Shown here piece after piece: positions 19,875 to 27,528 of a DNA stretch of 30,413 bases; the first letter of the stretch is position 1; the number at the start of each line of letters is the position of its first letter. Source of the stretch: a virus. The notes below the pieces were generated by a model, which had not been told where the DNA came from, made no database searches, and was given only the letters and a program-made list of their open reading frames with translations. The stretch spans positions 1-30,413 of the IMG/VR virus record IMGVR_UViG_3300025759_000442. The stretch is one strand, 5' to 3'. The position numbers and the translations under genes are program-made.

Positions 19875-20154
19875 AAGGGCTAAGGTAAAGATTCCATACA
19901 CCAACGCCAAGGGCGAGGAAAAAAACGATTGGGTAGAAATTGGCTCGATGTGGCGATCAGGGGATGATGTATGGTTACAGCTTAATGCGTTGCCAATACA
20001 AAGAGACAAATGGGATGGCAAGGTCAGCTTATTTAACACTGACGAAAAGCAATCTCAGCAAGCCAAGCAAGGCATTACTCAAGCAAAGGCGGTATTAGAT
20101 AACTCTGTGCCGCAACCACAACAGGAGATTACAGAAGATGACATTCCATTTTAA
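19861..20154 (+). CDS. SSB-like single-stranded DNA-binding protein
   Basis: ATG 19861 overlaps the annealing-protein gene by 14 bases. The 97-residue protein has basic strands at the N-terminus (KRAKVKIPYTNAKGEEK; WVEIGSMWRSGDDVWLQLNA; KVSLF) followed by a Gln/Lys-rich flexible region and the C-terminal tip EITEDDIPF. The DDIPF ending is the hallmark of bacterial SSB tails, which recruit partner proteins. The N-terminal part is shorter than a standard OB fold of about 110 residues and I cannot place it in the classic SSB family, but short phage SSB-like proteins with W.eiG....gd...l.l.AlP patterns occur. Close contact with the annealing protein is likely. Confidence 0.65.
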   Translation: MKVIKRAKVKIPYTNAKGEEKNDWVEIGSMWRSGDDVWLQLNALPIQRDKWDGKVSLFNTDEKQSQQAKQGITQAKAVLDNSVPQPQQEITEDDIPF

Positions 20155-20347
20155 TGTAGGCCGCAGTCTGCGCAAGGCACAGGCAGACAAAAGGGTTACA
20201 AACAAGATGCTAGCGGATAAGATTGGCGTTCACTCGGTGCAGGTATCTAGGTGGAGGTCCAGCGAGGATTTAAAGTTGAGCCGCGTGATAGAGCTTGCGA
20301 ATCATTTTGAAATGTCTTTAGATGAGTTCGTTGGTATAGGGCAATAA
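20138..20347 (+). CDS. XRE-family HTH transcription regulator
   Basis: A 69-residue single-domain protein beginning at ATG 20138, inside the end of the SSB-like gene. It has the Cro/C1-type helix-turn-helix: VGRSLRKAQADKRVTNKMLADKIGVHSVQVSRWRSSEDLKL is the helix 1-2-3 part, ending with a region IELANHFEMSLDEFVGIG typical of XRE proteins. It would bind an operator as a dimer. No integrase or opposing repressor is present, so it may be a Cro-like early-gene regulator. Symmetric sequences that it might bind are at 18427-18440 and 20625-20638. A strong minus-strand terminator follows immediately. Confidence 0.85.
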   Translation: MTFHFNVGRSLRKAQADKRVTNKMLADKIGVHSVQVSRWRSSEDLKLSRVIELANHFEMSLDEFVGIGQ

Positions 20348-20370
20348 AAAAACCCCGCCTTGCGGCGGGG
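20346..20370 (-). terminator. Intrinsic terminator, minus strand
   Basis: CCCCGCC at 20353-20359 pairs with GGCGGGG at 20364-20370 around a TTGC loop. On the + strand it is preceded by seven A (20346-20352) and followed by CTGTATAGG, so a proper U tract exists only for leftward transcription. On the minus strand it is a strong rho-independent terminator. No protein gene on that strand would use it. Confidence 0.75.
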
Positions 20371-20392
20371 CTGTATAGGTTAGGAGTGACCT

Positions 20393-20530
20393 ATGTGTGG
20401 TGAAAGGGGAGTAACACCACACCTTCAGAATATCACAAGGAATGGCGTTCGCGCTAGTTTCCTCCTCAGAGTATATCGGGCGTTAGGCCGAGGAACCGAA
20501 GAACCTCGGAGCGGAGTTGACCCTCTCTAA
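20393..20530 (+). CDS. Possible 45-residue ORF in the structured gap
   Basis: ATG 20393 lies six bases after AGGAG (20382-20386), an ideal spacing, and the frame runs to TAA at 20528. The peptide begins MCGERGVTPHLQNITRNGVR and is Arg- and Gly-rich, without any recognised motif. It overlaps the hairpin-forming sequence, which argues for RNA structure, while the strong binding site argues for translation. The two readings compete. Confidence 0.3.
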   Translation: MCGERGVTPHLQNITRNGVRASFLLRVYRALGRGTEEPRSGVDPL

Positions 20531-20624
20531 TAAGCGCCTCCCAGTGCCGAGTGCTGGTAACGGGAATAGACGACAAGATTCGATACGGTATACATAGCGC
20601 GTCACGCAGTTTATATTTAATTAG

Positions 20625-20638
20625 GTTACGTTAGTAAC
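20625..20638. promoter_or_regulatory. Inverted repeat, possible operator
   Basis: GTTAC and GTAAC separated by GTTA, 38 bases before the ATG at 20676. The same half-sites GGTTACG and AGTAAC also occur upstream of the gene at 24345 with a wider spacing. It could be an operator for the XRE protein coded just upstream. Confidence 0.3.
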
Positions 20639-20675
20639 TTAAAAAGGGTTATATGGTTTATCAAAGGGGAAGCAA

Positions 20676-21044
20676 ATGAAAACCAGATATGAAGAAATGC
20701 GAGAGCAAGTGCAGGCATATCACAAAAAACATCCAGAAGTTTGGGAACTGTTTTGCGATTTTACATTTCAAATGATTCGGCGTCGGTACAAGCATTATTC
20801 AGCGAAAGCGGTATTTGAGAGAATACGTTGGGAGAAGGATGCAGGCGGTGATGGCGTTACGCAGTTTAAGGTAGGCAATAACCATCCAGCATTTTACGCT
20901 AGGGCATTTATGAAAAAGTACCCAGAGCATGATGGGTTTTTCAGACTGCGAGAGCAGACCAGCCATAAGCGCTCAGCTACTAACCTAGATGAGTATTTCC
21001 CTAATCTTACGGAAGGGCTTAACAAGCTAACGGTGATGAAATGA
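20676..21044 (+). CDS. Conserved hypothetical phage protein
   Basis: A 122-residue basic protein with an AAGGGGA binding site. It contains FTFQMIRRRYKHYSAKAVFE, followed by RIRWEKDAGGDG, then FKVGNNHPAFYARAFMKKYP and HDGFFRLREQ. The order (ysa..vfe.iRW; fkv.NNh.a.YAR.fm..yP; gFF..R) is one I recall from proteins coded in early regions of many phages and prophages, without known function. The aromatic and basic residues suggest DNA or nucleotide binding. First gene after the structured gap. Confidence 0.6.
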   Translation: MKTRYEEMREQVQAYHKKHPEVWELFCDFTFQMIRRRYKHYSAKAVFERIRWEKDAGGDGVTQFKVGNNHPAFYARAFMKKYPEHDGFFRLREQTSHKRSATNLDEYFPNLTEGLNKLTVMK

Positions 21045-21250
21045 CGGATAAGGAAGTAATAGTCAGGTTGAAAATTGGCGACTTGGTAACTTCATACTTT
21101 GATCCTGATGGCGACATTATTATGCATCCAGAGTTTTTCGATATGCACCCAATTGACCAGCTAGATACTTTGCAAGACTGGGTATCCGCATTAGAAAATT
21201 TACAGTGTGAGGTTTACGATTCTTTGTATGGAGGCGCAGATGATTCTTAA
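21041..21250 (+). CDS. 69-residue hypothetical protein
   Basis: ATG 21041 overlaps the previous stop (ATGA). The protein is acidic, with two strands (EVIVRLKIGDLVTSYFDP; DGDIIMHPEFF) and a helix (PIDQLDTLQDWVSALENL). No family is recognised. The end overlaps the start of the next gene by 11 bases, consistent with a coupled gene in the early block. Confidence 0.5.
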   Translation: MTDKEVIVRLKIGDLVTSYFDPDGDIIMHPEFFDMHPIDQLDTLQDWVSALENLQCEVYDSLYGGADDS

Positions 21251-21605
21251 AGACGGAAAGCACTGGGAGCCAGCCGATGCCGATATAATTGAATGGCAAC
21301 GAGCGTATCAAAATATAGATGTGCATCGAGAGATAGACGCAATGGCTTGCTGGTGCGAGGCTAACCCTAGCAAGCGCAAGACGGCAAAAGGGGTAAAGCG
21401 ATTTGTTAACTCATGGTTAAGCCGAGCAGATAGAACGGGTGGAAGCCCTGATCTTGTTGGCGCAAAAAAGTTTAGCTTGAGAGATTGGGATACAACTGAC
21501 TGTATAACCCACGACTTTATGAACAGCCCTGCCTTCCGAGAAAAAATGCTAAAAGAGCACGGGCGCTATATGTCATTTAAGGGAGAGCGAGTTTATGCAA
21601 AGTGA
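21240..21605 (+). CDS. DnaT/replisome-organiser-like domain protein
   Basis: I chose ATG 21240, which has GGAGG a few bases upstream, over an upstream in-frame start. The 121-residue protein has WEPADADIIEWQRAYQNIDV, followed by HREIDAMACWCEANPSKRKT and AKGVKRFVNSWLSRADRTGG. This pattern (adv..Wq.aYp.vdv..El..m..Wl.aNP.krKT..g..rFi..WL.r....GG) is the C-terminal domain found in phage replication initiators and primosomal DnaT-like helicase loaders. Here it stands alone without the N-terminal DNA-binding part. It may recruit host helicase to phage DNA; sure of the domain, less of the function. Confidence 0.65.
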   Translation: MILKDGKHWEPADADIIEWQRAYQNIDVHREIDAMACWCEANPSKRKTAKGVKRFVNSWLSRADRTGGSPDLVGAKKFSLRDWDTTDCITHDFMNSPAFREKMLKEHGRYMSFKGERVYAK

Positions 21606-26201: not shown

Positions 26202-26398
26202 AACAGGCCGTGGTTATCGAATGGCATGACATCGCTGTTATGCCTAAGGATGAGGGCACGTATTTAGTCGCCTTTGATGATGGGACGGTAGAAACGTACC
26301 CTATTGGCTATGAAAATATACGCACTGGCATTATTCAAGACGGGTATACAAGGGGAGTTTTATGGGCACTGCCGATTTACGCGCCACTGATGGACTGA
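26189..26398 (+). CDS. DUF551-like small protein
   Basis: I chose ATG 26189, though ATG 26174 or GTG 26210 are possible; none has a good binding site. The core reads VVIEWHDIAVMPKDEGTYLV, then AFDDGTVETYPIGYEN and a hydrophobic end GVLWALPIYAPLMD. The pattern W..i..mP...G.YLV...dG.....g resembles DUF551, a short domain of many phage proteins with unknown function. It overlaps the methyltransferase gene by 37 bases. Confidence 0.5.
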   Translation: MACIKQAVVIEWHDIAVMPKDEGTYLVAFDDGTVETYPIGYENIRTGIIQDGYTRGVLWALPIYAPLMD

Positions 26399-27528
26399 AA
26401 GTAGAATACAGGCAGACTGAAAGTCTTATCCCATACGCAATGAATAGCCGCACACATAGCGAAAGCCAAGTGCTACAAATTGCGGCAAGCATTAAACAAT
26501 TTGGCTTTACTAATCCGCTTTTGGTTGATGATGAACAAACGCTAATTGCAGGCCATGGCCGTCTTTTAGCGGCAAAAGCACTCGGCCTTGCAGAGGTTCC
26601 TTGTATTGTTTTGCAGGGCTTATCGCCAGCGCAAAAAAAAGCGTATGTCATAGCAGACAATAAGCTGGCTTTAAATGCTGGCTGGGATACCGACGTTCTG
26701 ATGGTGGAGCTTAAACGCCTGCAAGAGCTAGAGTTTGATTTGGATTTAATTGGCTTCGACTCTAATGAGCTAGAGCATCTGCTAGAGCCTGAGCAGGTAG
26801 AGGGGCTGACCGACGAGGATGCAGTACCAGAAGCACCAGAGAAGCCTAGAACGGTAGAGGGTGATGTTTGGATACTGGGCAATCATCGGCTTATGTGTGG
26901 CAGTGCGACTGACCCTGATGACATTGAAAAGCTGACGCAGGGTGATTACATCGACTTGATACACACTGACCCTCCCTATGGCATGAATGCAGTAAGCAAG
27001 TCAGCCGTGTTGTCGAAAAACTATGATGGCGACATTTTGGGTGATGATGATGCAACAGTAGCTAAAGACGCATTCACGCTCATTTATTCGCTATACCCAA
27101 ATGCCAAGCAAATTTGGTGGGGTGCAAATTATTACTGCAGTGCTTTACCCGACAGCGAGTGCTGGCTCGTATGGGATAAAAACAACGGGCAAAGCGACCA
27201 AACAGATTGCGAACTGGCATGGGCTAACTTCCGCAGTGTCGTGCGACAATTTACGCAGGCAAGCGAAAAAACTAATAGGGTGCATCCCACGCAGAAACCT
27301 GTTTCTTTAATGGAGTGGATAATTAAGCGTTTCAATTTGAGCACGCGAACGATTGCAGATTTTTTCGGTGGCTCTGGGTCAACACTGATTGCGGCGGAAA
27401 AGCATGGCATTGACGCATATATAATGGAGCTTGACCCTAAATACTGCGACGTAATCATTAAGCGCTGGCAGGACTATACAGGCAAGAAAGCCGTACACGC
27501 TGATACTGGCGAGGCATTTAATGAGTAA
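26362..27528 (+). CDS. ParB-like domain + DNA methyltransferase fusion
   Basis: A 388-residue protein with AAGGGGA at 26350-26356. Residues 15-105 are a ParB/sulfiredoxin-like N-terminal domain (LIPYAMNSRTHSESQVLQIA; LIAGHGRLLAAKALGL; ADNKLALNAGW). Residues 165-372 are a beta-class DNA methyltransferase: catalytic TDPPYGM at 202-208 comes before the SAM-binding FFGGSGST at 334-341, and RVHPTQKPVSL at 306-316 is typical. DPPY enzymes methylate adenine N6 or cytosine N4. No restriction enzyme is adjacent, so it is probably an orphan enzyme that protects phage DNA or regulates packaging; target site unknown. The gene overlaps TerS by 8 bases. Confidence 0.9.
   Translation: MGTADLRATDGLKVEYRQTESLIPYAMNSRTHSESQVLQIAASIKQFGFTNPLLVDDEQTLIAGHGRLLAAKALGLAEVPCIVLQGLSPAQKKAYVIADNKLALNAGWDTDVLMVELKRLQELEFDLDLIGFDSNELEHLLEPEQVEGLTDEDAVPEAPEKPRTVEGDVWILGNHRLMCGSATDPDDIEKLTQGDYIDLIHTDPPYGMNAVSKSAVLSKNYDGDILGDDDATVAKDAFTLIYSLYPNAKQIWWGANYYCSALPDSECWLVWDKNNGQSDQTDCELAWANFRSVVRQFTQASEKTNRVHPTQKPVSLMEWIIKRFNLSTRTIADFFGGSGSTLIAAEKHGIDAYIMELDPKYCDVIIKRWQDYTGKKAVHADTGEAFNE

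Follow-up and report, generated by a model that had tools for sequence, protein, structure and literature searches.

The window, by which we mean the whole stretch of DNA analysed, spans the 30,413 bases of a virus record, and its long open reading frames (ORFs) all lie on the plus strand, as the preliminary description had stated and as the ORF list confirms. The gap studied here follows an XRE/Cro-type regulator gene of family F2 (20138..20347, plus strand; HTH_3, 7e-6), a family that was found upstream in most of the examined loci carrying the RNA described below and is its constant upstream neighbour. On the right the gap is closed by F24 (20676..21044, plus strand; phrog_13625), a 122-aa gene that is the first gene 3' of the RNA in the window's clade only. 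Next in our account comes F0 (21228..21605, plus strand), a 125-aa protein that is the constant downstream neighbour of the RNA and resembles the C-terminal region of phage replication initiators. In related loci of clades alpha to delta (all clade and subfamily names from alpha to eta were assigned in this analysis), the plus strand carries a Sak-type annealing protein, a small SSB-like ORF, the XRE gene, and the RNA, followed by a few variable small genes, F0, a NinB-like gene, and an exonuclease, with some loci being cut or having extra genes; the proposal that the gap adjoins the replication region was well placed. PHROG scans of most of the window's ORFs named no primase, helicase, polymerase, or complete initiator, and the nearest named terminases are those of Pelagibacter phages (52–55% identity). 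GC skew stays positive almost throughout the window and does not change sign at the gap, and a DNA similarity search against annotated phages and plasmids returned no match to the locus. The F0-linked phages that carry the RNA are uncultured and known here from metagenome contigs alone. Elsewhere in the window, we observed a fused ParB-N / N6-N4 DNA methyltransferase gene (26362-27528) directly 5' of the terminase genes, and a GC-rich plus-strand terminator-like hairpin (2263-2278) immediately 3' of the major head protein gene.

Judged from the window alone, the gap would be a weak finding. Its single-sequence fold is unremarkable (z = -1.61 on the minus strand and -1.69 on the plus strand; 8 of 100 shuffles folded at least as well on each strand), and the perfect inverted repeats of 8, 6, and 6 pairs that had been reported are present (20395-20402/20415-20422, 20375-20380/20389-20394, and 20488-20493/20504-20509). 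Sequence comparison indicates that the gap is real and not an ordinary spacer, because the identity of its core far exceeds that of its surroundings, the stems of the core covary, and a leftward terminator recurs next to it. Searches with F24 brought 57 viral loci and searches with the XRE gene brought 6, the gap being present in the closest of these only. When compared to 11 relatives, the core (20462-20606) is 77–99% identical, as against 57–97% for the XRE gene, 33–98% for the left part of the gap, 23–93% for the right part, and 39–93% for the next gene. Patterns taken from the core block matched 22, 27, and at least 80 loci among viral contigs, and the core loci reduce to 66 distinct core sequences. 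One contig (IMGVR_UViG_3300045135_000767; L069 and L083; 34,564 bases) contains the core twice, in identical copies flanked left and right by the same genes in the same order, and is probably an over-assembled circular genome.

The core, which we call the class I RNA, is ~145 nt long (20462..20606, plus strand; 161.5 bits and E 9e-42 with our model R1, a match that arises by construction since the window sequence is identical to a training row). Its structure alignment, A2, comprises 61 of the 66 distinct cores, the others being cut off or becoming duplicates once trimmed. Five helices and one pseudoknot make up the fold, with P1 closing the core, P2 holding the hairpins P2a and P2b, and P3 coming next. 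Across A2, 98.9% of 2,227 pair cells are standard pairs and 20 of 37 pairs show two-sided changes, and neither value was reached by any of 500 shuffles. When one strand was slid by 1–3 columns, pairing fell to 35–43%; the fold is favoured over its slid versions because the structure was drawn from the same sequences, and the two-sided changes are independent of that. P1 (5' strand 20471..20478, partner 20586-20593) is 99.8% paired with two-sided changes at 6 of 8 pairs. P2 (5' strand 20479..20483, partner 20534-20538) is placed by the pair counts in A2, and by eye its strands change together across subfamilies (GGGCG/CGCC, GGGCU/AGCC, GGCUA/UAGCC, GGGUG/CACCC). Inside it, P2a (20488..20509; CCGAGG/CCTCGG plus an inner pair) is 100% paired with two-sided changes at 4 of 7 pairs, and P2b (20513..20528), which carries the near-invariant loop TTGACCC, is 100% paired with two-sided changes at 2 of 4. 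P3 (20539..20565; arms 20539-20548 and 20556-20565) is 95.4% paired, and 6 of its 9 pairs changed on both sides. Four bases of the P3 loop (20551..20554) form the pseudoknot with a partner 3' of P1 (20597..20600), where 7 of 61 rows have U-G instead of A-U; the partner was located by the alignment and by complementary words in the subfamilies. Unpaired positions are also highly conserved, with CAA(G/A)ATTCGATAC being near-invariant in the 61 cores. Outside the core, inspection by eye across loci revealed a further plus-strand hairpin, P4 (20625..20638; GTTAC-GTTA-GTAAC), followed by TTAAAAAGGG, and a long-range helix 5' of the core, P0, which scored better than all of its own shuffles in 35 of 69 loci, is suggestive only. 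Covariation of the stems in relatives, a check named in the preliminary description, was found, and the reading of the gap as a structured non-coding RNA locus stands.

At gathering score, Rfam 15 has no match in the window or in ten further class I loci (L091, L103, L117, L142, L086, L116, L205, L212, L190, and L166), permissive Rfam scans gave sub-threshold matches only, and no description of the class I RNA was found in the open-licence literature. Searches of annotated phage and plasmid DNA gave chance fragments only with the core, and chance fragments or nothing with the epsilon, zeta, and delta cores. Exact patterns representing clades alpha to gamma had no hit in two scans of 84,980 bacterial and archaeal genomes, and R1 gave chance-level scores only on HTVC111P and DSL-LC06 (E 0.67 and 0.77, both in DSL-LC06). 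That class I is a new RNA family without an Rfam match is well supported by these comparisons, and with it uncultured phages would gain a structured RNA family that is large and strongly supported.

The strand of the core RNA is indicated by its stem variants, which in A2 read as G-U on the plus strand and as A-C on the minus strand (209 G-U vs 20 A-C; 122 of the 209 come from two invariant pairs and 19 of the 20 lie at one internal position). When each strand was folded separately with RNAalifold, the plus strand gave 236 G-U and 12 A-C and the minus strand 94 G-U and 43 A-C. Since the wobble pairs fit the plus strand, we place the core RNA on that strand, in the sense of the genes. A purely DNA element or packaging site was dropped as an explanation, since wobble pairs that fit the plus strand, and a pseudoknot, speak for RNA.

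With a pattern in which one P2 base was changed, we fetched 32 further loci, all of which R1 matched on the expected element (E 2e-10 to 1e-4). The divergent delta set shows 99.1% pairing and two-sided changes at 10 of 33 pairs in alignment A4, which was fitted to the model and whose pair counts lean toward it. The pseudoknot words of the delta to eta sequences differ yet stay complementary (CGGTT/AACCG, CGGTA/TACCG, or TGACT/AGTCA) in 48 of 49 distinct sequences; the exception, L235, has by eye the loop TGGTT, which could pair with a wobble. An automatic check of P1 was misanchored on most delta and eta rows, reporting 2–3 pairs, and those rows were left out. In some pairs of loci, the 350 nt 5' of the core are 91–99% identical, yet the cores are only 32–51% identical (flank vs core: L222/L250, 98% vs 49%; L230/L223, 99% vs 37%; L232/L246, 99% vs 32%; L190/L169, 97% vs 50%). 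Different cores in near-identical flanks point to exchange of the core by recombination between subfamilies, and such swapping suggests that an RNA is here under diversifying selection, an unusual case if so. Two other features were seen in divergent loci: 3' of the core, delta and epsilon loci carry an extra hairpin, the arms of which covary (CTGAG/CTCAG, CTAAG/CTTAG, CAAAG/CTTTG) and whose loop is conserved around GTCGC...GCC (both by eye), and L205, L233, L244, and other epsilon loci carry a repeated palindrome-like word, GGCGAGGCTTGCCGAGCC, just 5' of the first downstream gene; this gene differs between loci, and the word precedes its ribosome-binding site and start codon.

To the left of the core lies a conserved leftward intrinsic terminator (20346..20372, minus strand), which abuts the XRE stop codon. 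As had been described, a strong stem (20351-20372; 9 pairs, 7 of them G-C) is followed on the minus strand by seven T, the U-run extending to 20346, and it is the most GC-rich terminator-like site detected in the window. Under a strict rule (at least 6 perfect pairs, at least 4 of them G-C, and 5 T of 7), a leftward terminator is present in 61 of 70 alpha to gamma loci, 11 of 22 delta loci, and 2 of 2 eta_d loci, compared to 5 of 586 and 1 of 178 control strand-windows (the former being the comparison for alpha to gamma), so that the terminator is meaningful, as proposed. Several of the missed alpha to gamma and delta loci have, by eye, imperfect or 5-pair stems. The same rule found no leftward terminator in the 28 epsilon, zeta, and eta loci, all of which keep the core, and it also found a rightward terminator within the same 200 nt in 11 of 22 delta loci. 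The terminator is separated from the core by two hairpins whose complementary arms change in sequence, SL2 (20375..20394; ATAGGTTA/TGACCTAT), which is variable and belongs to the presumed antisense module, and the inverted repeat SL1 (20395..20422; GTGTGGTG/CACCACAC), the pairing of which is kept in clade beta (of 119 cells in the SL1 equivalent, 111 are Watson-Crick, 5 A-C, 2 other, and 1 a gap). The possible leftward promoter of the preliminary description did not hold up in the window, where a consensus scan of the gap gave no sigma70-like leftward match and its only match lies on the plus strand. Among relatives, a leftward -10-like word recurs beside the SL arms, with TTGTCA-17-TACAAT occurring in 8 of 66 distinct loci; best promoter scores over the 66 loci were 7.8 vs 7.2 in shuffles for the rightward and 8.2 vs 7.5 for the leftward direction. 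Both promoters are individually weak suggestions that rest on recurrent position. The product of the optional module is probably a short antisense RNA, overlapping the sense RNA at its 5' end, and a leftward product of ~100 nt (length estimated by eye) is plausible.

F0 relatives align with residues 189-238 of the 281 residues of phrog_1032, a 'replication initiation protein', with weak E values (0.0016, 0.0037, and 0.069), and a tblastn search linked the F0 family to one annotated 'replisome organizer' (8e-17). The window's own F0 has no PHROG hit. An architecture like that of phrog_1032 joins an N-terminal HTH to the C-terminal domain; F0 covers C-terminal residues only and has no hit to an HTH family. 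Its structure model (pLDDT 88, pTM 0.57) has no significant PDB match and, among viral proteins, significant matches to unnamed ones only; partial and non-significant resemblances were to a DnaT-domain protein (E 0.87) and a replisome organizer (E 8.4).

The association of the RNA with F0 was also approached from the protein side, with loci fetched by F0 alone. On the best 80 of 272 relatives, which are the nearest relatives of a delta-clade F0 and no random sample of F0 carriers, R1 gave 48 matches with E<1e-4 and 13 weak ones (0.07–0.26), and all 61 lie upstream of F0 on the same plus strand. Among loci with more than 1300 nt upstream of F0 (n = 58), there were 42 strong matches, 13 weak ones, and 3 without an R1 match (L232, L236, and L238), which instead match the zeta-core pattern beginning GGGTGTGTGG; among those with more than 1000 nt, R1 matched in 59 of 66. 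F0 lies 492–1795 nt from the start of the core. R1 found nothing in three phages that have F0-like domains, two of Vibrio and one of Ruminococcus. These counts show, at the level of gene order, a tight same-strand linkage between the RNA and F0.

Contigs lacking the class I RNA showed what may stand in its place. Of 46 contigs with F24 and no class I RNA, four encode F0 (L016, L017, L030, and L048); on these, R1 gave chance scores only and Rfam 15 gave no match at gathering score. In L016 and L048 the gap between XRE and F0 holds a different conserved sequence behind a leftward terminator-like hairpin. This class II element, ~250 nt long and unrelated to class I (L016, 3090-3330; L048, 3370-3610; L265-L295), has a word that matches 31 contigs, including those of L016, L030, and L048. 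XRE lies upstream in 29 of the 31 and F0 downstream on the same strand, 139–847 nt away, in 29 of the 31, the exceptions being contigs whose sequence stops within 250 nt leftward or within 285 nt rightward; none of the 31 carries the class I RNA. We call class II a conserved element only, because a structure for it lacks covariation (4 two-sided pairs, a number reached by 285 of 500 shuffles). Another three contigs (L013, L020, and L021) have homologues of Sak, XRE, and the exonuclease and neither F0 nor the RNA. In the two of these F0-less contigs that were annotated, L021 and L013, the space from XRE to the nin-like genes encodes a CHC2-type primase with a zinc finger, an HTH replication initiator (phrog_270; 4e-31 in L021 and 6e-35 in L013), and a DnaB-like helicase. 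So where the protein set is present the RNA and F0 appear to be absent, and the reverse.

Because F0 is linked to the RNA and the pair is exchanged with a primase, initiator, and helicase set, we propose, with about even confidence, that the class I RNA and F0 form the replication-initiation module of the phage. A promoter just 3' of the XRE gene would give a plus-strand transcript that folds into P1-P2(P2a,P2b)-P3 and the pseudoknot and continues into the downstream genes. The RNA would supply the origin or primer step, as an R-loop or a ColE1-type preprimer, or would directly control that step, and F0, as a free-standing helicase-recruiting domain, would bring the host helicase. In clades alpha to delta, a short antisense RNA would run up to the leftward terminator and tune initiation, in the position where lambda has OOP/pO, with XRE and the antisense RNA controlling the transcript. 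Whether origin, primer, or regulator best describes the RNA, we can only infer. The absence of a GC-skew switch at the gap speaks against the proposal, as do the weak profile hits that tie F0 to initiators, and the swap is seen in two annotated F0-less contigs. No rightward terminator was found in any of 118 distinct sequences up to 330 nt from where the core starts, indicating that the RNA is no free-standing small RNA unless it is processed.

A bolder form of this proposal, which we put forward tentatively and consider rather less probable, is that the RNA took over both DNA recognition and priming. The pseudoknotted transcript would mark and prime the origin, F0 would be the remnant of an initiator that now only recruits the host helicase, the RNA would be exchangeable, and RNA plus F0 would compete with cassettes of primase, initiator, and helicase. 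The exchangeability is seen in the swapping of cores of different type within near-identical flanks, and in the class II element, unrelated to class I, that can take the place of the RNA. Many small phages have no recognisable replication genes. If the RNA and F0 do start replication, this would explain how it is done, and it would show that an RNA can fill the place of a protein initiator.

The same arrangement could also reflect control of gene expression. As the distance from the RNA to F0 varies, the RNA could regulate the operon instead, acting as a cis-acting 5' leader of the downstream replication and nin-like genes with no direct role at an origin, whether by antitermination (as in HK022 put or Bacillus EAR), by ligand sensing, or by antisense-controlled attenuation as in plasmid rep leaders. 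In favour of leader control, the RNA is the first element of a co-directional operon and does not end in a terminator; in many alpha loci it is connected to the following gene by an SD-like AAAAGGGGAAGTGTGGATG (by eye), and a tight link to F0 is also expected if the RNA controls F0 synthesis. However, the first downstream gene differs by clade, and this, together with the variable F0 distance, speaks against control of any one ORF; the element contains no attenuator hairpin with a U-run; and no strong plus-strand terminator was found 330–4000 nt downstream, which leaves little to read through unless Rho is involved. The lack of such terminators weakens antitermination, which was dropped as the main function, and for a riboswitch, whose expression platform (a terminator hairpin or SD masking) would precede a consistent gene class, the terminator side of the pattern did not appear (rightward terminators at 0 of 118) and the first downstream gene differs by clade. 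We think leader control somewhat unlikely. A phage RNA processed from the transcript and acting in trans, as a decoy, a binder of RNA polymerase or ribosomes, or a packaging scaffold, appears improbable to us: the very high conservation of unpaired positions is what binding to a constant partner would give, but the RNA has no terminator of its own and keeps a strict place 3' of XRE and 5' of F0, which a trans factor would not need.

The preliminary description had favoured a leftward RNA of about 258 nt as the product of the gap. A leftward RNA as such is plausible, as set out above, but a shorter and optional one; the main RNA lies on the other strand, so that neither the strand nor the extent proposed for it was right. 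The conserved leftward terminator (61/70), the leftward promoter match in 8 of 66 distinct loci, and the complementary hairpins SL1 and SL2 between terminator and core would suit a leftward product; on the other hand, the wobble pairs of the core fit the plus strand, those of SL2 lean to plus as well (by eye), and the epsilon, zeta, and eta loci keep the core without the terminator (0/28), and we regard it as very unlikely that a 258-nt leftward RNA is the functional product of the gap. The competing reading, in which the function of the gap lies in a 45-codon ORF (20393-20530) and the RNA signal is incidental, can be dismissed with near certainty. The ORF does exist, and the window shares its ATG and a ribosome-binding-like AGGAG with five close relatives, but it is unconserved (45 codons in the window, and 46, 46, 30, 41, and 41 residues in the relatives, with differing C-terminal reading frames), has no ATG in L012, is missing by eye from L070, L079-L081, and L090, and has no family match, and the core evolves by compensatory changes and not by a synonymous bias of this ORF.

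The replication-initiation reading invites comparison with known systems. A ColE1-type replicon needs no replicon-encoded replication protein and forms a persistent RNA-DNA hybrid, which RNase H processes into the primer. Like the RNA II/RNA I pair of such a replicon, the class I locus has a structured plus-strand transcript at the replication locus, and in clades alpha to delta it may have a short opposite RNA, which would end at an intrinsic terminator beside the start of the sense RNA. The likeness on the antisense side is uneven (terminator in 61/70, 11/22, 2/2, and 0/28 loci of the groups given above, and a good leftward promoter in only 8/66), and the antisense part is missing in three subfamilies. 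The class I RNA differs in being always linked here to a phage protein, F0, which may or may not be needed; it also has a P3-loop pseudoknot and an unrelated sequence, and no RNA-DNA hybrid or RNase H site is known for it.

Other leaders and structured RNAs share single traits with class I. HK022 put and Bacillus EAR are likewise sense, cis-located structured leaders without a terminator of their own, but the class I RNA is much larger, has another fold, and is not a leader 5' of terminators to be read through, none that is strong being found 330–4000 nt downstream. Plasmid rep leaders, for instance that of ColIb-P9, likewise pair a loop with downstream sequence in a pseudoknot and come with an antisense RNA and a replication gene; in contrast, the class I antisense module does not reach the pseudoknot loop and is far from F0. 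Like class I, structured RNAs derived from metagenomes, GOLLD and ROOL among them, are conserved phage-linked RNAs from comparative genomics (PMC12286853, PMC2864571); class I differs from them in size and context and in having no Rfam match.

For lambda, we know of no conserved plus-strand RNA of the class I kind, and lambda has a complete O initiator with iterons, unlike F0, which is without the HTH part. The region of pO/OOP and ori-lambda is alike in that a leftward terminator ends a small regulator gene and stands just 5' of a replication gene and nin-like genes. It also has opposing promoters near the origin (PMC3985674). In the window the terminator abuts the XRE stop codon, with F0 and NinB downstream, and the gap has no leftward promoter match. 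The class I locus resembles both ColE1 RNA II/RNA I and lambda pO/OOP in its layout, more than in the features that define them.
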